DNA from: Methanosphaerula palustris E1-9c
GTDB lineage: Archaea; Halobacteriota; Methanomicrobia; Methanomicrobiales; Methanospirillaceae
Length of the DNA stretch: 64,000 bases
Direction: 5' to 3'
Assembly: GCF_000021965.1 (NCBI RefSeq)
Contig: NC_011832.1
Location: 1,612,001 to 1,676,000 of the forward strand
Positions within the stretch are counted from its first letter, which is position 1, and every line of letters starts with the position of its first letter. Made by a program: the position numbers and the translations under genes. The notes beneath the pieces are model-generated. The model worked only from the letters and a program-made list of their open reading frames with translations. It had not been told where the DNA came from and made no database searches. Of this stretch, positions 16,499-43,224 are shown one piece after another.

Positions 16499-17584
16499 TC
16501 ATTCCGACGTGACCGGAATCACATGCACCGCTGCTGCCTTGAACGTCGCATAGACCCCACTCCCCGGTTCAAGCAGCAGGTCCCGACAGCTCTCGCAGGT
16601 GAGGAGGGCCGTGAGCGGGAACCCCACATCCAGAACGACCCGGACCGTGCTCCCACAGGGAATAATCTCAGTAACAATCCCATAAAGGCAGTTGCGGGCG
16701 CTGGAGGCGAACGGCGCCCGTGAGAGGATCACGTCCTCGGCATGCAGGGTGGCCACCACCTCCCCGACGATATCAGAAGCGGCAGAGAACCCCGGACCCC
16801 GGGATGGTGTGATTCGGGCGAGTGTGCCGGCTCTGTCAGAATTCCCCCTGATGATGTTTCCGATCCCGAGAAACTCAGCCACGAACGTGTCCGCGGGATG
16901 CAGGAATACGTCCGGGGTCTCCCCCACCTGAACGATCCGCCCCTCCCGCATGATCGCCACCCTGTCGGCGAGCGCAAAGACATCGTCGAAATGATGGGTG
17001 ATCTGGATGATGGTGGTCCCGGTGAGCCGCTGGATCCGGGAGAGTTCCCAGCGCATCCTCTCCCGTGTCCGGCCGTCGAGGGCGCTCAACGGTTCGTCGA
17101 GGAGGAGGAGCGCCGGCCTGAGCACCAGCGCCCGGGCCAGGGCGACCCGCTGCTGCTCTCCCCCGCTCAACGTGCCCGGGTACCGGCCGGCGAGGGGACG
17201 GATCTCCAGCAGGGAACACATATCTTCGACCCTCGTGTGCCGCTCGGCCGAAGGAATTTTTTTCTGGCGCAACCCGAACGCGATATTCTCCTCGACCGTC
17301 AGGTGGGGAAAGAGCATGTAGTCCTGGTAGACCATCCCGATATTCCTCAACCGCGGTTCTGTCCCGGTGATCTCCCGGCCGTCCAGGAAGATCCTCCCCG
17401 CATCCGGGGTGTGGATCCCGGCGATGGTCTCCAGGAGGACCGTCTTTCCTGCACCCGACGGACCGAGGATGACAAAATATTCGTCAGGCCGGATCTCAAA
17501 GGAGATCTCCTGTACCGAGAACTCGCCGAGCGTGACGGAGAGGGACTCGATGCGGAGGACCGGTCGTTCCCCGCTAATAGACAT
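16499..17584 (-). CDS. modC: Molybdate/tungstate ABC transporter ATPase
   Basis: A 361-residue ATPase that drives oxyanion import. Walker A GPSGAGKT is at residues 41-48, with signature LSGGEQQR, Walker B LLLLDEP and switch His (ITHHFDD). The C-terminal ~90 residues form a TOBE-type regulatory domain, as in ModC, which may sense bound oxyanion. The ATG at 17584 (MSISGERPV) gives a normal N-terminus and overlaps modB by 11 bases. Confidence 0.88.
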   Translation of the reverse strand: MSISGERPVLRIESLSVTLGEFSVQEISFEIRPDEYFVILGPSGAGKTVLLETIAGIHTPDAGRIFLDGREITGTEPRLRNIGMVYQDYMLFPHLTVEENIAFGLRQKKIPSAERHTRVEDMCSLLEIRPLAGRYPGTLSGGEQQRVALARALVLRPALLLLDEPLSALDGRTRERMRWELSRIQRLTGTTIIQITHHFDDVFALADRVAIMREGRIVQVGETPDVFLHPADTFVAEFLGIGNIIRGNSDRAGTLARITPSRGPGFSAASDIVGEVVATLHAEDVILSRAPFASSARNCLYGIVTEIIPCGSTVRVVLDVGFPLTALLTCESCRDLLLEPGSGVYATFKAAAVHVIPVTSE

Positions 17585-18347
17585 GCACCCCCCGGTCGAC
17601 GAACTCCACCACACAGAGCGTGACGATCGAGATCAGAATCAGGATCGTGGCGGCCGCCACCGCCAGGTTCAGGTCCCCGGTCGAGATGTTGAGGTACAGG
17701 GCGATCGGCAGGGTCTCGGTCCTCATCGGCGTCGCCCCGGCCACCATCAGCACGGCCCCGAACTCCCCCATGGACTTCGACCACGTGATGACCGTGCCGG
17801 CGAGAAGACCGGAGCGGACCATCGGCAGGGTGACCTGGAGAAAGGCGCCGGCGTCGGTGCAGCCGAGGGTCTTTGCCACATATTCATAGCGGGGGTTCAC
17901 GGCGGCGAAGGCTGACCGCAGGATCCGGATCATGTAGGGGATGTTCACGAAGACCTCGGCGACGATGATCCCGAGCGGAGTGAAGATCACCCCAAACCCG
18001 GCGTCCTCCAGCGCCCTGCCCCACGGGGTCGTGCCGAAAAAGAGGAGGAGGGCGATGCCGGCCACCAGCGGCGGGAGCGTCAGGGGAAGGGTCAGGGCCA
18101 GGGTCGCGATCCGTTTCCCCGGGAACTGATACCGGGCGAGTGCATACGCAGCCGGGATGGCGAACGCGGTGCAGATGACCGTCGAGATGACGCTGGTGCC
18201 GAGGCTGAGCAGGATCGCGAATCGGATCTCAGGACTCGCCAGGGATGCAGCGAGCGCCGGCAACGGGGAGTACAGAAAGAGGCCCAGGAGAATTGCGCTG
18301 ATACCGAAAAAAATGAGATACGTGAGGGAGAGGAAGAGCCTTCGCAT
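17574..18347 (-). CDS. modB: Molybdate/tungstate ABC transporter permease
   Basis: A 257-residue inner membrane protein with about six helices. It carries the EAA loop that contacts the ATPase (YVAKTLGCTDAGAFLQVTLP, about residues 165-185). The neighbours are modC (overlapping) and trmO. Whether molybdate or tungstate is preferred cannot be read from the sequence, though a tungsten-type AOR lies elsewhere in the window. Confidence 0.9.
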   Translation of the reverse strand: MRRLFLSLTYLIFFGISAILLGLFLYSPLPALAASLASPEIRFAILLSLGTSVISTVICTAFAIPAAYALARYQFPGKRIATLALTLPLTLPPLVAGIALLLFFGTTPWGRALEDAGFGVIFTPLGIIVAEVFVNIPYMIRILRSAFAAVNPRYEYVAKTLGCTDAGAFLQVTLPMVRSGLLAGTVITWSKSMGEFGAVLMVAGATPMRTETLPIALYLNISTGDLNLAVAAATILILISIVTLCVVEFVDRGVHVY

Positions 18348-20527: not shown

Positions 20528-21409
20528 CTACGCAGTTCCATCTCCACCATTCCACCAGATATGGGCACTGAACGATCGCCCCCCAAACGAAAAACCGTCA
20601 CCGGATCGATGGAGGTGTTCCCCGAAATAGGAGAGCAGCACCTGTTCCTGTTCCGGGGTCGAGCAGTTCAGGCGCTGGAAATAATCCTGTGCGGCCGCTT
20701 CAACAGAAGAGAAGAACGTCGGTCTCTTCGCCTCGACCGTGAGGTTCGCATGAATTCCCATTTCATATAACACCTGCCAGAGACAGTCCGCCAGCGGTTC
20801 TCCGGGATACACGCCCCCATGGAGAGCCGGCCAGAGGTCTATGCTTATTCGGTCCCAGGCTGGGGGCGTCAGAAACCAGAAGAGATGGACGGTGCCGGTG
20901 CAGGAGGCCTGCATCTTCTCCAGGGCTTCTCCGATATCCGGCATCGAGAGGGCATACCCGTCGATCACGGCGTCGAACGGACCATCCAGCTCCTGCAGGG
21001 ATACGTCCTCCCAGCGTTTTGGAATAACCCGGATGCCGGATACTCCTGCTTCACACTCATTCTCCGCCAATCCCTCCCGCATCATCGGAGATGGTTCGAC
21101 GACCGTGACCCGGCATCCCCGGGCGGCCAGCGGAACCGCGAGGGTTCCGGTCCCTCCCCCGATATCGAGCACCCGAGAGCCGGCAGATATCTTCATGAAG
21201 TCGAGGTGCGACCTGATCTTCTCCTGCCACGCCGCCGTCTTCCGGCTCTTCAGGTACAGTTCGAGAACATTCTGTTTGTTCTTCCAGTAGGAATGGGAGG
21301 TTCTGTACTTCGGTGCCGCCAACAGGGCGAGTTTCTTCTGCCGCCAGAGATCCCTCCAGTATCGGGAATGGGAGAACGGGGGAACGCAGCCGGGGATGAT
21401 GGGAGTCAT
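20528..21409 (-). CDS. Class I SAM-dependent methyltransferase A
   Basis: A 293-residue Rossmann-fold methyltransferase. Motif I is LDIGGGTGTL at 81-90, followed by an acidic strand end (VTVVEPSP). The ATG at 21409 was chosen because the frame upstream runs into the FmdE gene. It is a clear paralogue of the gene at 22017-22913: both share WRQ.KLA near the N-terminus, VIPKRWEDV, TVHLFWFL and a C-terminal ending with IWW or LWW. Substrate unknown; the flanking genes suggest a metal-binding ligand or cofactor. Confidence 0.82.
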   Translation of the reverse strand: MTPIIPGCVPPFSHSRYWRDLWRQKKLALLAAPKYRTSHSYWKNKQNVLELYLKSRKTAAWQEKIRSHLDFMKISAGSRVLDIGGGTGTLAVPLAARGCRVTVVEPSPMMREGLAENECEAGVSGIRVIPKRWEDVSLQELDGPFDAVIDGYALSMPDIGEALEKMQASCTGTVHLFWFLTPPAWDRISIDLWPALHGGVYPGEPLADCLWQVLYEMGIHANLTVEAKRPTFFSSVEAAAQDYFQRLNCSTPEQEQVLLSYFGEHLHRSGDGFSFGGRSFSAHIWWNGGDGTA

Positions 21410-21432
21410 TGGAGTTCGAATGGCGTTATCCT

Positions 21433-21996
21433 CTACGATTCCAGCACAGTATAATACGACGTGATCCCGCAGTTCTTGCAGAGAACCTTTCCGTCGACGA
21501 CGATATGCCGGTTGTCCATGACCTGTTCCCCGCAGACACTGCACGTCGCTTTCTCCCGGGGAAAGCCCGGGATATCGTCTTCGGGAACGGAGATCTGCAC
21601 CCTCTCGATCTTCAGGATCTCCGACTCGGGGATCTCTCCGAGGAGTTTGATCACGTCCTTTGGGTCCAGCTGGTCGTGCTGTGCACGGTTCTTCTCCTGG
21701 ACAGCAACACGGACTGCTTTGCCGGTTCCGATGTCGACGAAGGTCGCTGCAAATTTGCCGTAGTCGATGTGTTTGAGATTCCGATGGCCCAGCGAGCACC
21801 CGGTGATCGCCTGCACGGCATCAGCCCCGCATCGATCGATCTCCAGGTAGACGATCAGATTGCGGTTGTTTTCGTGGGGATCCATCCCCAGTTCCCGCAA
21901 CCCTGCAATGGCCAGCCGTGTTCCAAGAACGATACCCGGGCAGACATGCCCGTGAAATTCCTTTGCCTTGTTGAATAATTCTTCATACTCACTCAT
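21433..21996 (-). CDS. FmdE-family protein
   Basis: A 187-residue FmdE-like protein, named from a subunit that co-purifies with formylmethanofuran dehydrogenase. The N-terminal domain has the conserved FHGHVCPG (14-21) and a Cys/Asp cluster (DRCGADAVQAITGCSLG), a metal-binding core. The C-terminus is a zinc finger (CSVCG, CKNCG). The ATG at 21996 follows GGGTGA. Many FmdE proteins sit next to ABC metal transporters rather than fwd genes, as here, so a metal-handling role is likely. Confidence 0.88.
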   Translation of the reverse strand: MSEYEELFNKAKEFHGHVCPGIVLGTRLAIAGLRELGMDPHENNRNLIVYLEIDRCGADAVQAITGCSLGHRNLKHIDYGKFAATFVDIGTGKAVRVAVQEKNRAQHDQLDPKDVIKLLGEIPESEILKIERVQISVPEDDIPGFPREKATCSVCGEQVMDNRHIVVDGKVLCKNCGITSYYTVLES

Positions 21997-22016
21997 ATTT
22001 TCACCCTGTATCTTCG

Positions 22017-22913
22017 TTATACGGTGCTCCACCAGAGGTGTGCACCCAGTGTTCCGTCCCCGAGGACAAGGGCGTCCCCGTCCTGCCGAAGCATCGTCTG
22101 GAAATAGTTCCGAACCGTCTCCTCCTGGGCAGGTGTCGTGCAGTTCAGACGCTGCAGGAACTCTTCGACGGCTTCATCCACATTCGCATACCGTGACGGG
22201 GGAAAACGGGTGTCCACCTGCAGATTTGCATAGATCTCCATCTCATACAGGACCTGCCAGAGCCAGTCCGCAGTCGGTTCCCCGGGGAAGATGCCACCGT
22301 GCAGAAACGGCCACAGGTCCCTGTTGACCTGAACCCATGCCGGCGGTAGCAGGAACCAGAAGAGGTGCACCGTTCCCCGGCAGCAGGCATTCATCTTCTC
22401 GAGGGCCTCCCCGATATCCATCATCGTCAGGGAATAGGATGCGATGACGGCATCGAATGGCTCACCCAGTTCGCCGACCCGGACATCCTCCCAGCGTTTG
22501 GGGATGACGACAAGATTCTCGATCTTCTCTTCCTGTATCCGGGCCTCCAGCAGTTCCCGCATCACCGGCGAGGGTTCGACCACGGTCACCTTACAACCGC
22601 GGGCTGCGAGCGGGATGGCGTAGGTGCCCGGTCCGGCTCCGATATCCAGAACACGCGAACCGTCCGGAATGCTCATCGAATCCAACCGGGTCCGGGTGAT
22701 CTCGTCATGATTGGTATTCCCTTTCGTGTATACCGTATGAACCTTCTTTTTGTTCCCCCAGAACTGTCGGGAGTTGCCATAATTCGGTACTGCACAATGG
22801 GCAAGTTTCAGCTGGCGCCATTGCTCTCTCCAAAAAAACCGGTCGATGGGATGCGGGGAATCTCCCGGGTTGTCAGAAGAAGCCGGGGTACAATGCAATG
22901 GTGAATTGTTCAT
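22017..22913 (-). CDS. Class I SAM-dependent methyltransferase B
   Basis: A 298-residue paralogue of methyltransferase A with motif I VLDIGAGPGT at 88-97 and the shared VIPKRWEDV and TVHLFWFL segments. The two genes flank fmdE on the same strand, implying an operon in which two related methylations act on one substrate or its two halves. No signal peptide. First gene of the minus-strand set of the island. Confidence 0.82.
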   Translation of the reverse strand: MNNSPLHCTPASSDNPGDSPHPIDRFFWREQWRQLKLAHCAVPNYGNSRQFWGNKKKVHTVYTKGNTNHDEITRTRLDSMSIPDGSRVLDIGAGPGTYAIPLAARGCKVTVVEPSPVMRELLEARIQEEKIENLVVIPKRWEDVRVGELGEPFDAVIASYSLTMMDIGEALEKMNACCRGTVHLFWFLLPPAWVQVNRDLWPFLHGGIFPGEPTADWLWQVLYEMEIYANLQVDTRFPPSRYANVDEAVEEFLQRLNCTTPAQEETVRNYFQTMLRQDGDALVLGDGTLGAHLWWSTV

Positions 22914-24677: not shown

Positions 24678-25712
24678 ATGATCCTCACGCCATCTGTGGG
24701 GACGGTGCTGGTCTACTGTCTCCTGCCGGTGCTCTTCTTCGCCTCGCTCTTTATCGGGCAGTACCCGGTCTCACCCCTGCATGTGCTCCAGCTGCTGGCC
24801 GCACCCCTGGTCGACCTGATACCTGGACACCTCATCCATTTCGAACCGATCTGGACGGCCGCTGAAGAGAGTGTCATCTATCAGGTCAGGCTCCCCCGGG
24901 TCATTGCCGCGGTGATCGTGGGTGCCGGGCTCTCGGTGGCCGGCGCTGCCTACCAGGGACTCTTCAAGAACCCGCTGGTCTCGCCGGACATCCTCGGTGT
25001 CTCTTCGGGGGCGGGGTTCGGAGCGGCCCTAGCCATCCTCCTGTCATGGAACCTGGCGATGGTCCAGTTGTCAGCCTTCTGCTTTGGAGTCCTGGCCGTG
25101 ACCGTCACCTACCTGCTCAGCCGGATCTACCGGACGACACCGACCCTGATCCTCGTCCTCTCCGGTATCATTGTTGCGGCCTTCTTCTCTGCTCTGATCT
25201 CGCTCACCAAGTACGTCGCCGACCCGTACGAGAAGTTGCCGGCGATCACCTTCTGGCTGATGGGCAGTCTCTCGTCGGTCCGGTACTCGGATATCGTGAT
25301 GGTGATTCCTCCCTTCCTTATCGCCACGGGTATCCTGCTCCTCATCCGCTGGCGGATCAATCTCCTTGCCGTGGGCGATGACGAGGCCCGGACGCTGGGG
25401 ATCGACACCAGACGGATGGCACAGGTGATCATCCTCTGTTCGACGCTGATCACCGCATCGGCAGTCTGTATCGCCGGTATCATCGGCTGGGTCGGCCTGG
25501 TGGTCCCGCACCTCGGGCGGATGCTGGTCGGCCCGGATTATACCAAACTCTTGCCGGTCTGTCTGCTCTTAGGGGCCTGTTATATGCTCATCATCGACGA
25601 TCTCGCCCGGATGCTCACGAATGCGGAGATCCCGCTGGGGATCCTGACCGCCATCATCGGGGCGCCGTTCTTTGCCTACCTGCTCAGCCGGAAGTCGGTG
25701 GGATGGATATGA
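24678..25712 (+). CDS. FecCD-family ABC permease (metal chelate/corrinoid uptake)
   Basis: A 344-residue permease with about ten helices typical of BtuC/FhuB/FecD. Conserved marks are VRLPRVIAAVIVGAGLSVAG, FKNPLVSPDILGVSSGAGFGA and IGWVGLVVPHLGRMLVGPDY. This family imports iron siderophores, haem, cobalamin and other chelates. The stop overlaps the ATPase start by 10 bases. Its binding protein is encoded at 29023. Confidence 0.93.
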   Translation: MILTPSVGTVLVYCLLPVLFFASLFIGQYPVSPLHVLQLLAAPLVDLIPGHLIHFEPIWTAAEESVIYQVRLPRVIAAVIVGAGLSVAGAAYQGLFKNPLVSPDILGVSSGAGFGAALAILLSWNLAMVQLSAFCFGVLAVTVTYLLSRIYRTTPTLILVLSGIIVAAFFSALISLTKYVADPYEKLPAITFWLMGSLSSVRYSDIVMVIPPFLIATGILLLIRWRINLLAVGDDEARTLGIDTRRMAQVIILCSTLITASAVCIAGIIGWVGLVVPHLGRMLVGPDYTKLLPVCLLLGACYMLIIDDLARMLTNAEIPLGILTAIIGAPFFAYLLSRKSVGWI

Positions 25713-26566
25713 TCCTCGATGTTCAGGAGGCCGGCTTCCGGTACGACCAGCGGCGGAAGATCTTTTCGGATATCTCATTCAGCCTTGCAGAGCAGGAGGT
25801 GCTCTGTATCCTCGGCCCGAACGGGATCGGAAAGTCGACCCTGATCCGCTGCCTGGCGAACCTCAACCCGCTCTGTGACGGGTCGATCCGGCTGCATGAC
25901 CGGGATATCAGATCACTGAACCGCCGGGATGTGGCAAAGATTATCGGATACGTCCCCCAGGCCCACGAGATCGTCTTCCCCTTTCAGGTCCGGGACTTCG
26001 TCCTGATGGGCAGGGCGCCTCACCTCGATCTCTTCTCGTCCCCGGACAGAGAGGACCATGCGAAAACCGATGCAGCGATGGACCTCGTCGGCATCACCCG
26101 GATCGCCGACAAACCGGTGAACGAGATCAGCGGTGGAGAGTATCAACTGGCCATGATCGCCCGGGCCCTGGCCCAGGAGCCGGAGGTCCTGCTGCTGGAC
26201 GAACCGACCTCGCACCTCGACTTCGGCAACCAGATCCGGGTCCTAGAGATCATCGACCGGCTCGCCCGCGACGGGTTATCGGTGATCATGAGTTCCCATT
26301 TCCCGGACCATGCGTTCCTGTCTTCCAACAACGTGGCGATCATGCAGGACGGGACGTTCATGGCCTACGGGCCGGCTGAAGCGGTGGTCACCGAAGAGAA
26401 CCTGAGGCGGGCGTACGGGGTGGATGTCTCGATCATCTACAATCACGATGTCGCTCGCCAGGTCTGCGTGCCCCATATGTCCGGACAGTGCCGGTGCAGA
26501 GATACGCAGCATCCGGAGTCCATGAACGCGTTCAAACCTGTCTCAAAGAATGAGGTGAAATCATGA
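25703..26566 (+). CDS. ABC transporter ATPase (FecE/BtuD type)
   Basis: A 287-residue ATPase with Walker A GPNGIGKST (38-46), a Q loop, signature ISGGEYQLAMIARAL and Walker B VLLLDEPTSHLD. The C-terminus carries an extra Cys-rich tail (VCVPHMSGQCRCRDTQ) not normal for the family and possibly metal-binding. It overlaps the permease gene upstream and methyltransferase C downstream by four bases (ATGA). Confidence 0.92.
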   Translation: MDMILDVQEAGFRYDQRRKIFSDISFSLAEQEVLCILGPNGIGKSTLIRCLANLNPLCDGSIRLHDRDIRSLNRRDVAKIIGYVPQAHEIVFPFQVRDFVLMGRAPHLDLFSSPDREDHAKTDAAMDLVGITRIADKPVNEISGGEYQLAMIARALAQEPEVLLLDEPTSHLDFGNQIRVLEIIDRLARDGLSVIMSSHFPDHAFLSSNNVAIMQDGTFMAYGPAEAVVTEENLRRAYGVDVSIIYNHDVARQVCVPHMSGQCRCRDTQHPESMNAFKPVSKNEVKS

Positions 26567-27216
26567 ATCAGAAACAAGCATGCCCCAATTCCCTGACCAA
26601 TGAGAGAAAGGCCCGGGAGTTCAACGAGGTGGCGAAGCAGGTCTTCGCCCCCATCTATCCGGTGATTGCCGAACAGATCCTGGCAAAAACAAAAATAATG
26701 TCCGGCCAGGGCCTGGACATCGGCAGCGGGCCGGGACATCTCGCGCTCGCCGTCGCAGCCCGGTCGGATCTCACCATGTATGCCATGGACTGCTCCCCGA
26801 TCATGAAAGCGATCGCCCAGGAAAATATCGACGAACAGAACCGTTCAAAGACAGTGAAACCCGTTCTGGGCGATGTTCACACGATCCCGTTCGATGACGG
26901 GACCTTCGACCTCGTCGTCAGCCGCGGCTCCTGGTTCTTCTGGGAGGATCCCCTCGTTGCATTCCGGGAGATCCTGAGGGTCATGAAGGACGACGGGTGG
27001 GCGTATATCGGTGGCGGTTTTGGGAATAATTCCCTGAAACACGAGATCATTGAGACGATGAAGGTCCGGGATCCCGACTGGGAGCGAGGGTTCCGGAACC
27101 GGCAGGGGACCAGAAACCGGAAGAATGTCGACGGGATTCTGAACACCGCTGCCGGGGCCGGCCATTATGGATTCATCGATGACGAATCCGGGCTCTGGAT
27201 CTGGATGCGGCGCTGA
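26563..27216 (+). CDS. Class I SAM-dependent methyltransferase C
   Basis: A 217-residue methyltransferase of the UbiE/type 11 pattern with motif I LDIGSGPGHL at 51-60, YAMDCSP, and FDLVVSRGSWFFWEDP. It differs from methyltransferases A and B. Translational coupling to the ATPase gene (ATGA) places it firmly in the uptake operon, implying that the imported compound or its carrier is methylated or demetallated in the cytoplasm. No substrate can be named. Confidence 0.85.
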   Translation: MNQKQACPNSLTNERKAREFNEVAKQVFAPIYPVIAEQILAKTKIMSGQGLDIGSGPGHLALAVAARSDLTMYAMDCSPIMKAIAQENIDEQNRSKTVKPVLGDVHTIPFDDGTFDLVVSRGSWFFWEDPLVAFREILRVMKDDGWAYIGGGFGNNSLKHEIIETMKVRDPDWERGFRNRQGTRNRKNVDGILNTAAGAGHYGFIDDESGLWIWMRR

Positions 27217-27235
27217 CGTATCGGATGTGATCGCT

Positions 27236-29005
27236 ATGCGCTGTGAAATTTGTGAACATACCTGTGAGATTCCGGAGGGAAAGGCTGGCAGATGCAGGAT
27301 GTATATCACGAGTGACGGTACGATCACCGAACGGTTCGCCGGGTCGTATCTGGTGAGGTACCCGATCAGCATCGAGACGATGCCCCTCCTTCACTTCTAT
27401 CCCCGGGGAAAATTTCTCCAGGTGAGCACCATCAGGTGTAACTTTTCCTGCACCGGCTGTGTCTCCGAGGTATTGACCCGGGCGACGAAGAAATTCGGGC
27501 CGGCGCTGACGAAACTGACCCCCGACGAGATCGTCGACCGGGCAGAAGCAGAGCACTGTCTGGGCATCATGTTCTGTCTGAACGAACCCGCCGTCTCCTT
27601 CGGGACATTTCTCGACCTGGCCGAGACCGCCCACAGCCGGGGGCTGCTGGTCGGGTGTTCCACCAACGGCTACTTCACGGAGAGCGCCCTCCGCCGGCTT
27701 CTCCCCTTCATCGATGCCGTGAACATCGAGTTGAACGGACGGAGCGATGAGGAGGACCAGGCGTGCGGGGCCGAGCATGCAGAACCGGTATTCCGGAATA
27801 TCAGGACGCTGTTTATGAATGGGGTCCATGTCGAGGTCGCGGTGATGCATATGAACGGCAATGAGGAGGAGGTGCTCGCTGCCTGTCAGGAGATCGCCGG
27901 GATCTCTCCGGCCATTCCCATCCAGGTCATGCGGTTCATCCCGCTGGGATCCGCCGATCTCTCCCTCGAACCTTCTATCCACCAATCCGAACGGTTCTGC
28001 GATACGATCAGGAACTATTCATCGTTCGTGTACCTGTTCAACTCTCCCGGGAGTCCGTACCTCAACACCCTCTGTCCCCATTGTGGAGAACCGGTGATCA
28101 CCCGGGAGATGCTGGGGCCGATGGGGGCACGAATCATCGGTCTTCAACCGCTGGGGGTGTGCGCCTGCGGGTATCACCTGCCCGTGACCGGCTCGATTGC
28201 ATCGGGTTCGTTTCTGGAAGAGGGGATGATGGGGGGCTACCGCCCGACCCGGGCATTCGAGATCATCCAGGCGATCCTGACCTGCCTGGATGTCACCGAT
28301 GATACGGCCTGCGCCCGGGTCTGGCTCGATTTCATGCAGAGCAACTACATCAACGAGCTTCACAAGAAGATCCAGACGATCGATTCCTATTACGAGATCG
28401 TGACCTATCTGGCCGGACTGACCGGACGGGAGGCGAAGGGAGCCGAACTCATCGAACATATGCAGGCGAGGGCGGGGTTCATCCAGGATCACGTATCCGC
28501 CCTGCCCAAGCCCCGGGTGTATTACATGATGGGCACCCCGTTCTTTGCGCTCAACGAGGGACGGTTTGAGACCCGTCTGGTCGAGGCCGCCGGCGGGTTC
28601 TCGGTGAACCGGGACCTGCCGAGGATGGGAAAGCCCGGAATTACCGTGACGCCGGCTGACCTTGAGAGGATGGACCCGGATATCATCGTCATATCCGGGC
28701 TCTTCTCCAGTCCGCCGGAGGAGGTGATGGCCTTCTGCAGGGAGCACGGGGTGTGTACCCGGGCTGCTGACGCCGGAAAGATCGTCAGTATGCCCCCATC
28801 CTGGGATTTCGGGAATCCACGCTGGATCCTGGGGCTCATGGTGCTTGCAAATGCCCTTCACCCGGAGGTGTTCCAGTTCGATCTGGACGCCGAAGCGGAC
28901 ACTTTTTATCGAAAATTCTATGGCATGCCGTTTGTGGATGCACAACCCAACCGGTCGTTCTTCAGACCGGATCCCGGCGCAGCCGGCCCCAATGAACTGA
29001 TCTAA
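27236..29005 (+). CDS. Radical-SAM enzyme fused to a BtuF/FecB-like binding domain
   Basis: A 589-residue cytoplasmic protein with no signal peptide. Residues 1-20 hold CxxCxxxC plus C20 (MRCEICEHTCEIPEGKAGRC), and CNFSCTGC at 68-75 is the [4Fe-4S] radical-SAM motif; both resemble AmrS/PflA-like activases. Around 285-320 further cysteines (CPHCG, CACG) suggest another metal site. From about 415 to the end the sequence resembles the second lobe of metal-chelate binding proteins (PRVYYMMGTPFFALNEGRFETRLVEAAGG, then VTPADLERMDPDIIVISG), normally extracellular. The ATG at 27236 was preferred to 27167, which overlaps the previous gene. It may process an imported chelate. Confidence 0.85.
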   Translation: MRCEICEHTCEIPEGKAGRCRMYITSDGTITERFAGSYLVRYPISIETMPLLHFYPRGKFLQVSTIRCNFSCTGCVSEVLTRATKKFGPALTKLTPDEIVDRAEAEHCLGIMFCLNEPAVSFGTFLDLAETAHSRGLLVGCSTNGYFTESALRRLLPFIDAVNIELNGRSDEEDQACGAEHAEPVFRNIRTLFMNGVHVEVAVMHMNGNEEEVLAACQEIAGISPAIPIQVMRFIPLGSADLSLEPSIHQSERFCDTIRNYSSFVYLFNSPGSPYLNTLCPHCGEPVITREMLGPMGARIIGLQPLGVCACGYHLPVTGSIASGSFLEEGMMGGYRPTRAFEIIQAILTCLDVTDDTACARVWLDFMQSNYINELHKKIQTIDSYYEIVTYLAGLTGREAKGAELIEHMQARAGFIQDHVSALPKPRVYYMMGTPFFALNEGRFETRLVEAAGGFSVNRDLPRMGKPGITVTPADLERMDPDIIVISGLFSSPPEEVMAFCREHGVCTRAADAGKIVSMPPSWDFGNPRWILGLMVLANALHPEVFQFDLDAEADTFYRKFYGMPFVDAQPNRSFFRPDPGAAGPNELI

Positions 29006-29022
29006 AAACCTGGAGTATTCGT

Positions 29023-30132
29023 ATGAAAAAGAATTACCAGATAATCCTGATTATCGCAGCGGTCCTCGTCATCGCAGGAATCGCTGCTGTTGTAATGAGC
29101 GGTGCCGCCTCGGCGAATACACCGTCATCGGTATCACATGGAAACAGTACAAAGACCATCTCCGATATGCTGGGCCGGACGCTGGTTGTCCCCCAGACGA
29201 TCACTCGAGTGCTCAGCACGGAACCGCCGACCACGATCCTCACCTATGTGCTGGCACCGGACAAACTGATCGGGGTCAACTTCGATCTGAACCAGATCAA
29301 CGGTTCCGTCTACCTGCCTGAAAAATATCGTTCCCTCCCCAATGTCGGCGGCTGGTACGGCAAAACGACCGGGAATTATGAGACGTTCATATCAATGAAC
29401 CCCGAGGTCATTCTCTATGGCGGTATGAACGAGGGAAACTTTTCAGGCACGCTGGATGAGCGCCAGCAGAAGTTCGGCGTAATACCGGTTGCCGGGGTGC
29501 TGGATTCCATGAATGCCACAGATTACAATCCATCGATCCGCTTCCTTGGCACACTGCTTGGCGCTGATCAGCAGGCAGCATCGCTCTCCGAGTTCTATAA
29601 CCGGGTGCTCTCAAATGTCACCTCACGGGTTTCAGGTATTCCAAAGAATGAGCGTGTCGGGGTTTATTACGCAGAAGGCCCCAAGGGACTCCAGACCGAT
29701 CCCTCGGGTTCTACGCATGCGGATCTGATCGAGCTGGCCGGCGGGGTCAATGTGGCTGATTGTCAGATCACACCAGGGAATGGTATGACAGCGGTCTCGA
29801 TGGAGCAGGTGACGAAGTGGAACCCAGATGTGATCATCGTGGGCGACCCGGACTTTTACAGCACGGTCTATAACGACACCCTCTGGCAGTCGATTCCAGC
29901 GGTGAAGAACCACCGGGTCTATCTCGTTCCGCAGTCACCATTCACCTGGTTCGACCGGCCACCGGGCGTCAACCGGATCCTCGGTATCCCGTGGACGGCG
30001 AAGATCCTGTACCCCGAGAAGTTCACCGATACGAACATGCCGGCGCTCACCCGGGAGTTCTATTCGAAGTTCTACCACTACAACCTGACGGATGACGAGG
30101 TGAACAGTCTGCTGGATCCTCTGCTCCGGTAA
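29023..30132 (+). CDS. ABC transporter substrate-binding protein (FecB/BtuF type)
   Basis: A 369-residue extracytoplasmic protein with an N-terminal hydrophobic segment (5-27) that lacks a lipobox, so it is membrane-anchored or cleaved. The helical-backbone metal-receptor fold is shown by ISDMLGRTLVVPQTITRVLS, VTKWNPDVIIVG and the C-terminal VNRILGIPWTAKILYPE. It completes the FecCD/ATPase transporter. GGAG precedes the start, and a clear terminator follows. Confidence 0.93.
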   Translation: MKKNYQIILIIAAVLVIAGIAAVVMSGAASANTPSSVSHGNSTKTISDMLGRTLVVPQTITRVLSTEPPTTILTYVLAPDKLIGVNFDLNQINGSVYLPEKYRSLPNVGGWYGKTTGNYETFISMNPEVILYGGMNEGNFSGTLDERQQKFGVIPVAGVLDSMNATDYNPSIRFLGTLLGADQQAASLSEFYNRVLSNVTSRVSGIPKNERVGVYYAEGPKGLQTDPSGSTHADLIELAGGVNVADCQITPGNGMTAVSMEQVTKWNPDVIIVGDPDFYSTVYNDTLWQSIPAVKNHRVYLVPQSPFTWFDRPPGVNRILGIPWTAKILYPEKFTDTNMPALTREFYSKFYHYNLTDDEVNSLLDPLLR

Positions 30133-30177: not shown

Positions 30178-30416
30178 GGTTTTTTTTCCCTTGTCACATC
30201 ACCCGCGGATCGCATCCGGTTCCCCGGGCGGGCCACGGTGATTTCGAGGAGAAGGACGACGGTGTGAAGGGGCCGGCTTCGTCGTGATCCCGTTCGGGCG
30301 CCGGCGGGGGTTCGGGTGGTGGTGTGTTTTTTGTGGCGAGCGGGACGGTGCTTGGTTATGGCATAAATCAGGAGTATATACGTGGTTTTCCGAATTGAAG
30401 GAATGATTTATTGCGG

Positions 30417-30871
30417 GATTATATCCCCACAAATGTGGGGAACAAAATAATAATATCAAAACATTCGAATGGTATATCGGTTCATCCCTTCACTTGTGAG
30501 GAACCCATAATAAATTTTTATGTTCAGAAACATCAATCGGTTCATCCCCACGCTTGTGGGGAACTCTGACATTCTTTTTCACTCCTTGTATACTAATACG
30601 GTTCATCCCCACGCTTGTGGGGAACAGGATACTAATATCAAAACATTCGAATGGTGTATCGGTTTATCCCCACAAGCGTGGGGAACTCTTAGGATTTGGT
30701 GATCACATCGGTTCGCTAATGGTTCACCCCCCCTCATATGTGAGGTAATATTAGTTAATCAATTCATCTTCTATACTTTACTCAGTTCATTCCCAGATGT
30801 GTGGAACTTGCCATCCATGAGTATCACAATGACCCGGAATCTTAGTTCATCCTCACGCTTGTGGGGAACTC
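30417..30871 (-). repeat. Degenerate trailer end of the array
   Basis: Eight repeats (30417, 30478, 30538, 30599, 30660, 30720, 30783, 30843), most of them with substitutions (for example TTCACTTGTGAGG at 30478), while spacing stays near 61. The repeat at 30660 carries its central hairpin in reversed order (CCCCACAAGCGTGGGG instead of CCCCACGCTTGTGGGG). Confidence 0.85.
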
Positions 30872-33800
30872 TTCCGCCAATCTGCAGACACCGACGGGTT
30901 GAACGGTTCATCCCCACGCTTGTGGGGAACTCATCATACTGTGCCGTTCGTCGAGGCGCAGCTCCGGTTCATCCCCACGCTTGTGGGGAACTCCTCCCTC
31001 CAGATCCTCGTATCCTGAGCGTACTCGGTTCATCCCCACGCTTGTGGGGAACTCCACATAAATCTGGTGGAGCGGATGCAATTAAACGGTTCATCCCCAC
31101 GCTTGTGGGGAACTCTCATCCTGGGTGAGGAGGAACTATGAGCACTCCGGTTCATCCCCACGCTTGTGGGGAACTCTTCGCGATCTCCCGTTGTGCAAAC
31201 GCCCGAGCCGGTTCATCCCCACGCTTGTGGGGAACTCTACAGCGTCCATCTGATTAATGATGCAGTTTTCGGTTCATCCCCACGCTTGTGGGGAACTCCT
31301 CCGAACTCCTCACTGAGCGCAGCCGTGATCCGGTTCATCCCCACGCTTGTGGGGAACTCCTGAGTGTTTCACACATCTCGCGGTTCGACCTCGGTTCATC
31401 CCCACGCTTGTGGGGAACTCGAACCCCCTTCTGATTGCTTTGGGGAGGATATAGGTTCATCCCCACGCTTGTGGGGAACTCGATTTGAGCATTTCGATAA
31501 ACTGTTCTGCGATCGGTTCATCCCCACGCTTGTGGGGAACTCAATTGTCGATGTTCGCGTTGATCGTCAAGAAGCGGTTCATCCCCACGCTTGTGGGGAA
31601 CTCTGTCTGGTATTTCACTGACCTCGAGCCTGGGACGGTTCATCCCCACGCTTGTGGGGAACTCGTGGTGTGATTGGAGGGTTCCTCTGTGTGCTCCGGT
31701 TCATCCCCACGCTTGTGGGGAACTCAAATGGATCGATTGGGGCGCTCCCTCATAGACCGGTTCATCCCCACGCTTGTGGGGAACTCCTCTTGTGGCTGAT
31801 GCCTGTAGAGAAGTAAATCGGTTCATCCCCACGCTTGTGGGGAACTCAAACAATTCAAAGTGAATCATTACCAGAACTGCGGTTCATCCCCACGCTTGTG
31901 GGGAACTCTATCTGATAGGTTTCTGTATCGATCAAGTACCCGGTTCATCCCCACGCTTGTGGGGAACTCCGTATTTGTGTTAAATACCGAAATATACCCG
32001 TCGGTTCATCCCCACGCTTGTGGGGAACTCATCATGGCTCTGGGATTTTGGAGATGGAAATACGGTTCATCCCCACGCTTGTGGGGAACTCGCATTGTAT
32101 TGGGAAATTCACTCCAAATGGAACGGTTCATCCCCACGCTTGTGGGGAACTCATCTGCTCAATCAAGCCCTTCGTCAGCGGAGACGGTTCATCCCCACGC
32201 TTGTGGGGAACTCTGCGAAGTACACCGCTGCCAAGGCTGACGGCACGGTTCATCCCCACGCTTGTGGGGAACTCGGGCTCTCGTTCGGGCAGAAGGATCA
32301 GAAAGCCGGTTCATCCCCACGCTTGTGGGGAACTCCCGGTCGGGGTCGGTGCGAGGTTCTCAACGATCGGTTCATCCCCACGCTTGTGGGGAACTCTCGG
32401 CGGAGTTGGCCCCGACCAGGGCGAGGTTCGGTTCATCCCCACGCTTGTGGGGAACTCAGACCCTTCTGATGGTCTTGAGCCATCCGTTTCGGTTCATCCC
32501 CACGCTTGTGGGGAACTCCCATCCCGGTATTTCGTCGGCTTCCCGACCAACGGTTCATCCCCACGCTTGTGGGGAACTCCGAAAAAGTATAAAATGTTCT
32601 ACCCATTGTATCGGTTCATCCCCACGCTTGTGGGGAACTCTCTGACCGATCCGGAGAGGAATGCTGAATGATCGGTTCATCCCCACGCTTGTGGGGAACT
32701 CGGCGTCACTGTCAAAGGGGCGAACCCGATCGCCGGTTCATCCCCACGCTTGTGGGGAACTCGATTTTTTTAACTGTGTTGTAATCTGACGACACGGTTC
32801 ATCCCCACGCTTGTGGGGAACTCCCAATCCAAACATGGATCGGCTGCTCCTGTGACGGTTCATCCCCACGCTTGTGGGGAACTCCTGAAGACGATGCTCG
32901 CGGGGCTGATTGGGCTCGGTTCATCCCCACGCTTGTGGGGAACTCGAGATTGTCGGTTGGGATCGCACCGGTGCCGGCGGTTCATCCCCACGCTTGTGGG
33001 GAACTCTGATGCTCGGTCTCGTCGATTGCAGTCGTCGACGGTTCATCCCCACGCTTGTGGGGAACTCATGGACTTTGGAAACGAGCATCGGCGTAATCTC
33101 GGTTCATCCCCACGCTTGTGGGGAACTCTGCGCGACCGCTCGGAAAAATTAGGGAGCGGGCGGTTCATCCCCACGCTTGTGGGGAACTCCCGGACTGCCG
33201 GAAGCCCTCTACGACCACTGCCGGTTCATCCCCACGCTTGTGGGGAACTCCAACAGAACCTCGCAGAGTTCGGAACGGCAACCGGTTCATCCCCACGCTT
33301 GTGGGGAACTCGGGGATCACCAACGTCAGGGAGGCTCTGCTGACGGTTCATCCCCACGCTTGTGGGGAACTCTGCCGGCCGGGGTGCCGCAGTTGTGCCG
33401 GCTGTGGTTCATCCCCACGCTTGTGGGGAACTCGAAATTTGAGCAGGGATTCATGGTTTCGCTCCCGGTTCATCCCCACGCTTGTGGGGAACTCATAAGT
33501 TCATAGTAACGCTTTGTATTTAGTGCCGGTTCATCCCCACGCTTGTGGGGAACTCGCGTAGTCAATGACGAACCCGCCGCCCCGGATCGGTTCATCCCCA
33601 CGCTTGTGGGGAACTCGATAATGTCCCGGGTATCCTGTGTGGTTGACTCGGTTCATCCCCACGCTTGTGGGGAACTCGCCATCACTAAATGTATGCCGGT
33701 GAGTTTTTTCGGTTCATCCCCACGCTTGTGGGGAACTCGGACAAAAAAACCGACACCTCGATCACGGATCCGGTTCATCCCCACGCTTGTGGGGAACTCC

Positions 33801-36800
33801 CGTCGTTCCGGGTCCGTCACGACACCTCCGACGGTTCATCCCCACGCTTGTGGGGAACTCGCGCCCAGTTCGTCGTCGACTGTGTTGACCACCGGTTCAT
33901 CCCCACGCTTGTGGGGAACTCCTTCATGCCCGCATTTCGAACACCTGGTCATACGGTTCATCCCCACGCTTGTGGGGAACTCGTGGTTGGGAGTATGTAC
34001 GCTCCGCCAGAGATCGGTTCATCCCCACGCTTGTGGGGAACTCCCAGTTGTACGCATCGGCTGTGATGTAGTTGTCGGTTCATCCCCACGCTTGTGGGGA
34101 ACTCTCGTCGATATCATCGTCGCGCATTCTGTCTACCGGTTCATCCCCACGCTTGTGGGGAACTCCAGTCCGTTGTGATATATCCTCTCAGATCCAACGG
34201 TTCATCCCCACGCTTGTGGGGAACTCTCCGGTTCCGACCATCCTGAGACCGGAGGGTTCGGTTCATCCCCACGCTTGTGGGGAACTCAAAAGCACAACAA
34301 GCCAAAAGAACAGGTTATCCGGTTCATCCCCACGCTTGTGGGGAACTCTACTAGCATCCTCGAAAAATTCCGCAGCGATTCGGTTCATCCCCACGCTTGT
34401 GGGGAACTCGCCAGAAACAACCGTTTCGTTTACAGTAGATCCGGTTCATCCCCACGCTTGTGGGGAACTCTTTCACGCAACATAGATATACTATTAAAAC
34501 TACGGTTCATCCCCACGCTTGTGGGGAACTCTTTATCATCTAAAATTTCTGCTTCAAGAGGAATCGGTTCATCCCCACGCTTGTGGGGAACTCATACAGA
34601 ACCAGAAGAAACTGGTCGATGGGAACGGTTCATCCCCACGCTTGTGGGGAACTCGATAGATGAAGCAATTGAAACTACAATCTCATAGGTTCATCCCCAC
34701 GCTTGTGGGGAACTCTCTAATGGTGGGGTTGATTAATTTATATGTTCCGGTTCATCCCCACGCTTGTGGGGAACTCATCAATATCAACGCTGTCTAATAG
34801 TTCGGCAACGGTTCATCCCCACGCTTGTGGGGAACTCATATTAATGATCCAAAATTTAATAGTGTTTATCGGTTCATCCCCACGCTTGTGGGGAACTCTC
34901 ACTAAGGAAATTAATTACATATTTGTTTTCCGGTTCATCCCCACGCTTGTGGGGAACTCGTCAATATCAACGCTGTCTAATAGTTCGACAACGGTTCATC
35001 CCCACGCTTGTGGGGAACTCATCATATTATGGTAGAGAATATATTATAGATCCGGTTCATCCCCACGCTTGTGGGGAACTCTAAATCCCCATTGTTCAAG
35101 TTCATCTTCCCAATCGGTTCATCCCCACGCTTGTGGGGAACTCTTTTTTGGATATTGAAGTCGATGATGCAGAATCGGTTCATCCCCACGCTTGTGGGGA
35201 ACTCATTATAAGATTTTGTATTGGGAATAAAAATTTCGGTTCATCCCCACGCTTGTGGGGAACTCATGATCGGCGTCGAAATCGGAATGGCGCGCTGCGG
35301 TTCATCCCCACGCTTGTGGGGAACTCCTCTATTCGCGCAAAAACCATCTTCCCCGGGTGCGGTTCATCCCCACGCTTGTGGGGAACTCTCCAGTGTCATT
35401 CAGGATAAATGACCTAATGTCGGTTCATCCCCACGCTTGTGGGGAACTCTACTCATCCCTCAGATCCCTGATTAGTCTCCCCGGTTCATCCCCACGCTTG
35501 TGGGGAACTCAATATCTGAAATGTATAAATCTGGTATCCATTCGGTTCATCCCCACGCTTGTGGGGAACTCGTTAGGTTGTTCTGTAGTTTTTCTACAAG
35601 ATCCGGTTCATCCCCACGCTTGTGGGGAACTCTATATTATGAAGGGTCGGTGATGTATTGTGATCGGTTCATCCCCACGCTTGTGGGGAACTCTCCGAAC
35701 TCGCCGGCGGGGACATCGTAGAAAACGGTTCATCCCCACGCTTGTGGGGAACTCATTGGAGCCCATTCCCCACACCAATGAGTCTCCGGTTCATCCCCAC
35801 GCTTGTGGGGAACTCTCGGTGAACCGGAGATCGGAAAAATCCGCATTCGGTTCATCCCCACGCTTGTGGGGAACTCCTAACGCGGTTGCATCCCCCGAGA
35901 TGCATCTCCGGTTCATCCCCACGCTTGTGGGGAACTCGTTCTCCGCAGAGGAGATGGATCGATTAAGAGCGGTTCATCCCCACGCTTGTGGGGAACTCCA
36001 GACTGCGCCACCCGTCGGGCAGGACTGGACCGGTTCATCCCCACGCTTGTGGGGAACTCCGCCGAGCCTACAACAACCCTCGATCGCCGCTCGGTTCATC
36101 CCCACGCTTGTGGGGAACTCGTTATCTGCAATGAATCGGAACAGATCGACACAGGTTCATCCCCACGCTTGTGGGGAACTCTTGATCCCGCTTCTCCAGA
36201 GCAGCCAGGTCCTCGGTTCATCCCCACGCTTGTGGGGAACTCATCTTTCGCTTGGCCTTGATCTCCTTATCACCTGGTTCATCCCCACGCTTGTGGGGAA
36301 CTCGGGCCCGGGTAAAACACGATGTTGAGTTTAATCGGTTCATCCCCACGCTTGTGGGGAACTCAGTCTCCGATTATCAGGTTCAGGTCCCTGTGACGGT
36401 TCATCCCCACGCTTGTGGGGAACTCGTTAAAACTGCATTTTGGTACAATAATGATGCCGGTTCATCCCCACGCTTGTGGGGAACTCCTTTGGTGTTGAGA
36501 GGATCACTGTGGGTCCTACGGTTCATCCCCACGCTTGTGGGGAACTCGACAGTTAACCTCCGCAGAACTAACTCGGATCCGGTTCATCCCCACGCTTGTG
36601 GGGAACTCGAGTTCTTTGTTCTCATCCCAAACCAGCAGTTCGGTTCATCCCCACGCTTGTGGGGAACTCCCTTTCAGTTGGGAACAGTTCAACGTCTACT
36701 CCGGTTCATCCCCACGCTTGTGGGGAACTCAGCAAAGGGTTCCCCATTCACGGAGGCAGCACCGGTTCATCCCCACGCTTGTGGGGAACTCACTTGCTGC

Positions 36801-37035
36801 TTTACTCCCGGCCCGGTCGAAGACGGTTCATCCCCACGCTTGTGGGGAACTCCAGGTATCGGACTGTGTTGCACATTCGAGGGCCGGTTCATCCCCACGC
36901 TTGTGGGGAACTCGTGTAGATCTCGATCTTCGCGTCGGCGGATTCCGGTTCATCCCCACGCTTGTGGGGAACTCCGTGTAAATCGCGCCAACTGCTGCGA
37001 GTATCGCGGTTCATCCCCACGCTTGTGGGGAACTC
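30417..37035 (-). CRISPR. Type I-E CRISPR array, ~109 repeats
   Basis: A 29-base repeat recurs about every 61 bases; on the plus strand it reads CGGTTCATCCCC ACGC TTGTGGGGAACTC in short segments. From 30904 to 37007 the spacing gives 101 repeat units, and eight older, partly degenerate repeats lie at about 30417, 30478, 30538, 30599, 30660, 30720, 30783 and 30843. Spacers are mostly 32 bases, a few 33. Read on the minus strand, the repeat begins GAGTTCCCC and ends ATGAACCG, matching the I-E consensus, so transcription runs from 37035 down. The cas genes lie upstream of the leader. Sequences of the form SSPRLWG and HPHACG are translations of the repeat, not proteins. Confidence 0.99.
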
Positions 37036-37202
37036 TCTTCTCATTATATACTGAAAAGGGGAAACTCAGTTCCTTCCTACCGGTGCCGGCTGCGATCGAC
37101 TGCCAATAGAATTTGAGATACCATGGTTCTTTGTCATGATCAGGTTCTGATCAGATCTCATCTGATCATATTCTATCAGGATATGCATCCAGATAAACCT
37201 CC
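37036..37202 (-). promoter_or_regulatory. CRISPR leader
   Basis: This 167-base non-coding stretch lies between cas2 and the newest repeat, the usual leader position in I-E loci. It includes three TGATCA words (37137, 37148, 37163), the middle one inside the palindrome TCTGATCAGA. It should hold the array promoter and the integration signals. No IHF protein is expected in an archaeon, so integration must be guided differently. Confidence 0.7.
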
Positions 37203-38391
<1,189 letters not shown>

Positions 38392-38403
38392 ATCGATCCC
38401 CTC

Positions 38404-39081
38404 TTACGCAGGCCGAACCATCATCAATCCGCACCCGAACCCCTTGGCCGGACCGATACCGTTGAACAGCGCAGTGGTGAACCGTTCGGGATCAGTCACC
38501 GTCAATAGTCCCGTGAAGTCGAGGGTGCTGATCTGTACCATCTGCTTTTTCTTCGGCTTGACAAATCGGTGCTGAGTATATCCGTCCACTCTGACTGCCC
38601 CATCCTGCAGGGAAAAACCTTTTGCATTCCCCTGGTTCGCCAGCCAGACCAGGCCGGCTTCCTGAATGATCTGGTCTTCAGCAGGCCACTGATCTCCAGG
38701 TTTAGAATCCTTTAACGCGGTCTTCATATCCATCACAACGTCGTGTCGGTGTTGTTTTCCCAGATCGTCCCGTCGTGACCGGATCGGATTCGCCCTGAGC
38801 ACGAACGACAGGTGCATCCCCTGGCGCAGAATTGGAGCATATGGCTTGGACTTGATATTCCAGGTTTCATTCCGATCAGATGGCACCCGTTCTGACACCG
38901 TCCAGAAGACCGGCATCCCCTGGTGTACCTCCTGTCTGAAGAGAAAATCCCGTTCACGTTCAGGCCCGTCTGAAAAGAGATCCCAGATCAGTGAATGTGC
39001 CTGGTATGCACCACCGACATGCTCCCAGAACGCAGGATGATCTGAAGCATCCGCATTAAGTTGGATTTTGCTTATCTGCAT
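38404..39081 (-). CDS. cas6e: Cas6e crRNA endoribonuclease (CasE)
   Basis: A 225-residue Cas6e that cuts pre-crRNA at the repeat hairpin and stays in Cascade. The C-terminal glycine-rich element (GIGPAKGFGCGLMMV) is the family signature. The start at 39081 follows AGGAGGTGA. Its 5' end overlaps cas5 by 26 bases. The repeat it must cut has a 6-base-pair GC-rich stem. Confidence 0.93.
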   Translation of the reverse strand: MQISKIQLNADASDHPAFWEHVGGAYQAHSLIWDLFSDGPERERDFLFRQEVHQGMPVFWTVSERVPSDRNETWNIKSKPYAPILRQGMHLSFVLRANPIRSRRDDLGKQHRHDVVMDMKTALKDSKPGDQWPAEDQIIQEAGLVWLANQGNAKGFSLQDGAVRVDGYTQHRFVKPKKKQMVQISTLDFTGLLTVTDPERFTTALFNGIGPAKGFGCGLMMVRPA

Positions 39082-39829
39082 GCTGCTCACCTCCTGTAAC
39101 AATACGTATCATCGCATACTCTTCATCTCTCCTTCCAAACTGCCATCGTCTTCTGTTCAGGCTTTCGTCATTTCGGACGGAAGTACCTTCTGCCTGTATC
39201 CCCTCAGTGCAGTCCCAGTATGCTCGGACGTTTGAATCCCGGTTCCCCGGTACTCGTCCCAAAAATCGCAGTTCAATTTCCCGTTCTTCAGAGAGGGCCG
39301 TGAGGAGATCCGGAGCAGTCTTCACCTCCGGATTGACCGGCAGCGCAAGGGGACACGACTTTCTTCCAAGGTAGAGGGTGAAGACTGGATGCTGGAGATG
39401 CTCGGCCAGGGTCTTGAGGGAGTAGGGTGGTGCGGTATCCCGGCACCAAATATACACTCGGTAAACAGCATCACACCGGTAGTCCCGGGTGGAGAGGATT
39501 GTATTCAATACCTCTCGCGGTGCTGCCAGTTCATCCTTTCTGGTCAGATATTGCCTTCCCTTCTTGGCAGCAGATGGAACCTGGGTGGTATGATAATCCC
39601 GAAGGAGCATTCCCGGAGCGTCCACGCGGATTGCAACCTTGTAAGCTCTGGTCAGAGCAGCCAATCGTTCCTCCTCATCGCGTCTGATCCCAAGAGCCGC
39701 AGCCAGAAGCCCCAGCACTGCCGACCGGGTCGGGTGATCCGCGGTCGGTCGATACTCTCCGACTGCGATATCTCCCCATGAGGCCATCATCCCATAAAGG
39801 GAGAAGGTCAGGTACTCAGGTTCAGGCAT
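39056..39829 (-). CDS. cas5e: Cas5e (CasD)
   Basis: A 257-residue RAMP protein that binds the 5' handle of the crRNA in Cascade. It starts MPEPEYLTFSLYGMMASWGDIAVGE, matching CasD, with RPTADHPTRSAVLGLLAAALGI. The ATG at 39829 overlaps the end of cas7 by eight bases. Confidence 0.93.
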   Translation of the reverse strand: MPEPEYLTFSLYGMMASWGDIAVGEYRPTADHPTRSAVLGLLAAALGIRRDEEERLAALTRAYKVAIRVDAPGMLLRDYHTTQVPSAAKKGRQYLTRKDELAAPREVLNTILSTRDYRCDAVYRVYIWCRDTAPPYSLKTLAEHLQHPVFTLYLGRKSCPLALPVNPEVKTAPDLLTALSEEREIELRFLGRVPGNRDSNVRAYWDCTEGIQAEGTSVRNDESLNRRRWQFGRRDEEYAMIRIVTGGEQHADKQNPT

Positions 39830-40928: not shown

Positions 40929-40949
40929 ATTCATCACTCCATAATGTTT

Positions 40950-43087: not shown

Positions 43088-43102
43088 CAGTGACCGCCTC
43101 CA

Positions 43103-43121
43103 CCGGGAGGATCTCTCCCGG
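43103..43121 (-). promoter_or_regulatory. Hairpin in the cse1 5' leader
   Basis: CCGGGAG and CTCCCGG form a 7-base-pair stem with a 5-base loop, placed just upstream of the GGTGGAGG ribosome-binding site of cse1. It could modulate Cascade translation. Confidence 0.45.
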
Positions 43122-43156
43122 AGATAGGATCAGGAGGTGTAATTGACCGTCCGATC

Positions 43157-43167
43157 AAAAATATATG
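43157..43167 (-). promoter_or_regulatory. Probable Cascade promoter (TATA box)
   Basis: On the minus strand CATATATTTTT lies about 70 bases before the cse1 start, in the only sizeable gap within the cas set, leaving room for the hairpin-bearing leader. Confidence 0.5.
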
Positions 43168-43224
43168 ATACAACATTCAAATAACCACATAACCTTATGA
43201 GATTTCTAAAGATTATAAAACTTT

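Follow-up and report, generated by a model that had tools for sequence, protein, structure and literature searches.

An AmrS-like radical-SAM enzyme fused to half of a type III substrate-binding protein and its probable place in a molybdenum regulon

We analysed a stretch of 64,000 nucleotides from Methanosphaerula palustris E1-9c (NC_011832.1, forward-strand positions 1,612,001 to 1,676,000), referred to below as the window and numbered from its first letter. At 27236-29005 on the forward strand the window carries an intact open reading frame of 589 residues, in which a radical-SAM enzyme is joined to half of a substrate-binding protein. The ATG at 27236 is backed as the start by 24 of 24 aligned relatives. 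FecCD, FecE, methyltransferase, fusion and FecB genes are packed in an operon-like manner (24678-30132), with 19 nt between the end of the methyltransferase gene and the start of the fusion and 17 nt between the end of the fusion and the FecB gene. The following features were annotated:

24678-25712, forward strand: ABC permease of the FecCD/BtuC type (FecCD 7e-90)
25703-26566, forward strand: ABC ATPase of the FecE/BtuD type (Pfam and NCBIfam-type profile matches)
26563-27216, forward strand: small class-I SAM methyltransferase, the gene most regularly found with the fusion (Methyltransf_11 7e-21)
27236-29005, forward strand: radical-SAM/half-receptor fusion protein, 589 aa (Pfam, profile comparison, AlphaFold2, Foldseek, alignment)
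27242-27295, forward strand: N-terminal module of four cysteines (C3, C6, C10, C20), possibly an additional metal or cluster site (conserved without exception in the 24 relatives)
27371-28015, forward strand: radical-SAM core, AmrS/PFL-AE-like, residues 46-260 (Pfam 9e-11; TIGR04337 7e-27; Foldseek PFL-AE)
27437-27460, forward strand: CX3CX2C motif CNFSCTGC, residues 68-75 (invariant cysteines)
28061-28183, forward strand: Cys-rich ribbon CPHCG...CACG, residues 276-316, putative auxiliary cluster or zinc site (C280, C283 and C311 invariant)
28238-28495, forward strand: segment helical throughout, residues 335-420, with the receptor spine helix at its end (AlphaFold2 secondary structure)
28376-28975, forward strand: half of a type III substrate-binding protein, spine helix and C-lobe, residues 381-580 (hhalign, Foldseek)
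28790-28834, forward strand: best-conserved of the lobe's cleft loops, MPPSWDFGNPRWILG, residues 519-533 (alignment and loop conservation)
29023-30132, forward strand: exported FecB-type substrate-binding protein (Peripla_BP_2 3e-18; PDB 4pag 1e-57, 3psa (MolA) 4e-23)
21433-22032, reverse strand: FmdE-family protein, accessory, molybdenum/tungsten context (PF02663 2e-33)
17574-18347, reverse strand: Mod/Wtp molybdate/tungstate ABC permease (TIGR01581 239 bits, cut-off 210)
16499-17614, reverse strand: Mod/Wtp ABC ATPase (best match WtpC at 413 bits, just below its cut-off of 440)

The Mod/Wtp permease and ATPase genes (16499-18347) lie 9 kb from the fusion. The FmdE gene is flanked by two related methyltransferase genes (20528-22913, reverse strand, opposite to the fusion), homologues of which adjoin divergent fusion copies at two other loci (L052 and L055). 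At about 30400-46000 the window holds a large CRISPR-like repeat array followed by reverse-strand open reading frames that resemble cas genes, as judged by their sequence and size only.

The N-terminal part of the fusion has the sequence and fold hallmark of the radical-SAM superfamily, a CX3CX2C motif in a partial TIM barrel, and its fold matches that of PFL-AE. Pfam Radical_SAM covers residues 65-211 (9e-11). The motif, C68-N-F-S-C72-T-G-C75, is complete and invariant in all 24 aligned relatives, as are cysteines 3, 6, 10 and 20 (the four within residues 1-45), 108, 141, 177, 280, 283, 311 and 501. These results bear out the preliminary description of this DNA, which had read an AmrS/PflA-like core with a complete CNFSCTGC motif and extra cysteines. 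Profile searches placed the core nearest to the activases AmrS, YjjW and PFL-AE; the tungsten oxidoreductase maturase matched it weakly (5e-8). Membership in the AmmeMemoRadiSam AmrS family (TIGR04337) was rejected at 94.2 bits against a curated cut-off of 220, and membership in the MoaA or tungsten maturase (W_rSAM_matur) families was rejected at scores far under the respective cut-offs. A quick tree resolved the radical-SAM cores of the fusion, of an unfused sister protein discussed below and of AmrS as three separate groups, the AmrS split being supported at 100 SH-aLRT. No AMMECR1 or MEMO gene was recognised in the operon, where the partners are FecBCDE and the methyltransferase. Searching a viral fold library with the fusion returned generic radical-SAM matches only.

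The C-terminal part contains a Rossmann-like lobe (residues 427-565) followed by a conserved NRSFxRP tail, as indicated by alignment and an AlphaFold2 model of the fusion (pLDDT 88.6, pTM 0.88). Comparison with the FecB family by hhalign gave 99.6% (E 2.3e-24) and aligned fusion residues 381-580 to FecB 164-368. Since the profile alignment spans FecB 164-368 only, the N-lobe is missing and the lobe amounts to half a receptor. Peripla_BP_2 matched residues 338-492 over profile positions 71-202 of 235 (7.6e-6) at 25.9 bits, just below the cut-off of 27.5, and a PDB sequence search retrieved the type III receptors 4ovk, 3psa and 4pag at 2e-5 to 5e-4. Foldseek with the AlphaFold2 model returned 4hn9 (7e-12), 4ovk (8e-12) and 3psa (MolA, 8e-10), then PFL-AE (3c8f) and NifB (7jma). 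Pfam, PDB sequence search, profile-profile comparison and Foldseek are concordant in identifying an AmrS/PFL-AE-like radical-SAM domain and a type III receptor. A FecB/BtuF-like lobe had earlier been proposed for about 175 C-terminal residues, with structure prediction as the check; the fold stands, type III metal receptors having been retrieved with the predicted structure, and the size is corrected to about 200 residues (381-580). Of the receptor elements the fusion retains the spine helix and the C-lobe, and the profile alignment finds no counterpart in it of the N-lobe that would complete two lobes around a ligand.

No N-terminal hydrophobic stretch of the kind expected for export was found in the fusion, whose maximum Kyte-Doolittle value is 0.2 as opposed to 3.3 in the FecB protein at 29023. 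This agrees with the earlier proposal of a cytoplasmic protein lacking a signal peptide next to a gene for a truly exported version. Within the lobe, conservation is higher in the four strand-to-helix loops at the C-terminal strand ends, the ligand cleft of type III receptors, than in the remainder (0.68 vs 0.47, p=1.9e-5), and in the main family no other part of the lobe is as well conserved as these loops, the sequence PSWDFGNPRW among them. The conserved cleft comprises residues 432-445, 453-470, 487-493 and 519-533. Because the cleft loops are so conserved, presentation of a ligand to the radical enzyme, as previously suggested, appears plausible, although the cleft residues differ between the neighbouring FecB protein and the lobe (E218/H232 against M432/E445). 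Cys501 is specific to the fused lobe family.

We located 30 fusion loci in public genomes. A strong match is present in 51 of 393 Halobacteriota genomes, most of the 51 encoding the full-length protein; the carriers belong to the Methanomicrobiales, the Methanosarcinaceae and two further families. Among Bacillota, 9 of 56 genomes of the Syntrophomonas class are carriers. Aligned relatives are 37-59% identical to the window protein. In a divergent subfamily (e.g. L051, L052, L055, L063 and L098) both the cleft motif and the NRSF tail have been lost; L017:3333-5060 (reverse strand) and L097:11434-13140 also belong to it, and several members adjoin methyltransferases other than the usual one. At five loci (L011, L032, L041, L054 and L100), in some Methanoculleus-type genomes, the fusion is split into two open reading frames by a frameshift or assembly error.

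When 45 fused lobes were put into a tree together with 45 FecB lobes, one branch (100/100) set all of the former apart, while the 24 orthologues of the adjacent FecB formed their own clade (100/99). As the fused lobes form one clade apart from the FecB lobes, a recent capture of the domain from the neighbouring gene, as the preliminary description had envisaged, is unsupported. Descent of the two clades as sisters was not rejected (AU p=0.077). From the tree, the fusion looks old and of single origin.

The methyltransferase gene lies directly upstream of the fusion in most loci and is present in 17 of 18 fusion genomes searched; FecB, FecCD and FecE usually accompany the fusion as well. Some fusion genomes (such as G009, G022, G072 and G096) encode distant FecB proteins only. 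Since a close orthologue of the adjacent FecB is absent from some fusion genomes, that importer is not obligatory. By sequence, the methanogen FecB protein at 29023 is related to the molybdate-binding protein MolA. Recurrent extra neighbours comprise DUF364/DUF4213, an O-methyltransferase, FmdE and further methyltransferases. DUF364 has been linked to the transport of Mo, W, V and Fe (PMC2954201). Several other assignments were considered and rejected. The similarity of the partner methyltransferase to ArsM-type models is only generic, and the window enzyme, read from its sequence, has two cysteines only and no ArsM-like cysteine set. Matches pointing to corrinoid, heme or F420 transport were all below cut-off and had no supporting neighbours.

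The main clue to function, absent from the preliminary description, is the molybdenum/tungsten-cofactor regulon. The RF01055 riboswitch was found in the leaders of 6 of about 12 Bacillota fused-system operons (L023, L024/25, L106, L136, L137 and L138), 94-261 nt upstream of the operon. The genomes of these Bacillota relatives mostly contain 1-17 copies of RF01055 each. If a genome has about 10 copies, a hit on the correct strand and no more than 300 nt away has a chance of ~6e-4 per locus, and the probability of 6 of 12 leaders carrying the element is about 4e-17. All RF01055 leaders of the fused system contain the stem P3 (Moco type). Roughly half of the fused operons in Bacillota lack a leader riboswitch, and one of these is in a genome without any RF01055. 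As regards side observations, two tandem P3-lacking Moco/Tuco switches at L104:5898-6276 lie 3' of a fused operon and 5' of formate-dehydrogenase-like genes. At L138, a MOSC-domain gene recognised by Pfam (12978-13412) and an apparently MOSC-like one (9552-9863) are located upstream of the riboswitch-controlled methyltransferase/fusion pair.

A sister operon combines FecBCDE with an unfused radical-SAM protein of 320-345 aa and a protein of 380-415 aa, here termed c28. It was examined at ten Bacillota loci (L127, L129-L133, L135 and L142-L144) and also occurs at L045-L048. In all 10 Bacillota loci RF01055 was found upstream, always lacking P3 (tungsten type), so that P3 separates fused from unfused systems (Fisher p 1e-4). 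The two systems and the two switch types occur together in one genome (G451), P3-containing at L025 and P3-lacking at L135, where the riboswitch extends into the 5' end of the first open reading frame if that frame is taken at its longest. Regulski et al. (PMC2408646) found RNAs with P3 associated with Moco genes and RNAs without it associated with tungsten-cofactor metabolism, the biochemical meaning of P3 being itself an inference of that study. The distribution of P3 thus points to the fused system serving molybdenum and the unfused one serving tungsten.

The c28 protein had no Pfam or NCBIfam match, and its model weakly resembles phosphonoacetate hydrolase of the alkaline-phosphatase superfamily; the idea that c28 is a stand-alone receptor lobe was rejected, with 0.4% probability in profile comparison. 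The unfused system at L046 lies near a homologue of the molybdenum storage protein (4e-60) and, by reading, a Wtp-like ATPase. AA_kinase-family proteins occur beside the unfused system of methanogens at L046:2141-2929, L046:3269-4078 and L047:14990-15853, the first of which is the match to the molybdenum storage protein subunit beta. At L045:7962-10172 (reverse strand) and L047:11280-13604 we saw FecB proteins that are 736-774 aa long and contain Peripla_BP_2 twice in tandem.

No RF01055 riboswitch was found in the 64-kb archaeal window, and for the archaea it is therefore orthology and gene neighbourhood that link the fusion to molybdenum. In 5 of 30 archaeal genomes, from four genera, a ModB-like permease is encoded no more than about 10 kb from the fusion, compared with 0.8 expected (p 0.0015, less strong if two genomes of one genus are counted once). 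The fusion is near MoeA and FwdA at L050 and near NifE/N at L051, and FmdE also adjoins some archaeal copies.

Taken together, the fusion very probably belongs to a molybdenum regulon. Because molybdenum-cofactor sensors control the operons of its relatives, its task within the cell is probably the handling of imported molybdenum, and the lobe has a slightly better than even prospect of binding a molybdenum ligand. We tentatively favour, at a little under even chances, a cytosolic enzyme of a molybdenum-acquisition system whose receptor half docks the ligand for radical and methyl-transfer chemistry. A Fec/Mol-type ABC importer would bring in molybdenum as a chelate or oxyanion, and the spine helix and C-lobe would dock the same kind of ligand in the cytosol. 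The AmrS-like domain would stand where the receptor N-lobe would be, so arranged around the ligand that its radical-SAM site and the co-encoded methyltransferase could rework the organic part. The most likely outcome would be molybdenum freed or re-ligated for cofactor synthesis. The importer and molybdenum steps are probable from regulon, neighbours and kinship; the docking and chemistry are what we infer. Release of a chelator by the system, as opposed to its synthesis, is a possibility that we regard as doubtful.

The main rivals are chelator synthesis and the maturation of a cofactor or enzyme. Fec-type importers commonly carry metallophores, and two SAM-using enzymes are here encoded with such a transporter, with DUF364 and an O-methyltransferase as recurrent extras. 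The fusion and the methyltransferase could accordingly build a molybdenum-binding molecule that is exported and re-imported, the lobe acting as product site or sensor. We consider this unlikely: two enzymes are few for making a chelator from primary metabolites, and no recurrent exporter, synthetase or carrier protein was found in the loci. A role in maturation, in which the fusion would modify a pyranopterin, molybdopterin or molybdenum enzyme, as PFL-AE activates its partner, and the lobe would recognise the cofactor, would suit the proximity of the core to activases and its weak resemblance to the tungsten maturase. FwdA, FDH and NifE/N are found near some fusion copies, and Moco enzymes are also under Moco riboswitches (PMC2408646). 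However, no single molybdenum enzyme recurs beside the fusion, whose constant company is the importer and the methyltransferase, and the MoaA and W_rSAM_matur scores speak against it as well, leaving this role distinctly unlikely.

It may also be asked whether the lobe binds a ligand at all. It could be a structural relic or a protein-docking module, for example for the importer, with the radical enzyme acting on an unrelated target; the missing N-lobe and the loss of the cleft motif in the divergent subfamily would fit. The conservation of the cleft loops in the main family argues against such a lobe, which we regard as improbable.

Extending the processing of an imported molybdenum ligand to both metals, anaerobes may possess twin Fec-type uptake-and-processing systems, each with its cognate riboswitch and a radical-SAM enzyme that processes the imported ligand in the cytosol: one for molybdenum with a methyltransferase and a fused radical-SAM protein, the other for tungsten with an unfused radical-SAM protein and an alkaline-phosphatase-like protein. 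We put this forward as a possibility somewhat short of even. If true, it would constitute a new biochemical route of molybdenum and tungsten acquisition and would hint at what a clade of AmrS-like radical enzymes does. How strict anaerobes in sulfidic water obtain these metals and tell them apart is poorly known, and a radical enzyme on half a metal receptor, with Moco-type switches and a tungsten-type sister, offers a concrete and testable entry to this question.

We found no paper on a radical-SAM/half-receptor fusion, and literature searches on AmrS, DUF364, methanogen iron/sulfur proteomics and molybdenum-linked transcriptomes turned up no identifiable member. Among known systems, AmrS (TIGR04337) shares with the fusion the radical-SAM core, the N-terminal CxxCxxxC...C module and the C-terminal Cys ribbon at 27-31% identity but has no receptor lobe. 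PFL-activating enzyme and NifB share the partial TIM-barrel radical-SAM fold (3c8f, 7jma). In contrast to the former, the fusion has no glycyl-radical partner gene in view beside it, and in contrast to the latter, a role with the nitrogenase cofactor would be hypothetical. The Moco/Tuco regulon as described comprises genes for Mod transport, for the synthesis of Moco and for Moco enzymes, together with function-unknown genes in Syntrophomonas wolfei; the portion of PMC2408646 consulted does not name the radical-SAM/methyltransferase pair, although the operons of Bacillota relatives carry the same aptamer in their leaders. DUF364 (Dhaf4260) likewise joins a Rossmann-like domain to another fold in metal-transport neighbourhoods, including those of Mo and W (PMC2954201), but contains no radical-SAM enzyme and is a separate gene that adjoins the fusion in several loci. 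MolBCA, which imports molybdate in Haemophilus influenzae, resembles the importer encoded here in being of the Fec type and through MolA, and a radical-SAM or methyltransferase partner like those in the fusion operon goes unmentioned in the title and abstract of PMC4031551. With FecB/BtuF/MolA-type receptors the fusion shares the spine helix, the C-lobe, the cleft loop positions and a C-terminal FYxxFY segment, while it differs from them in having neither signal peptide nor N-lobe, in its fused radical enzyme, in other cleft residues and in Cys501.
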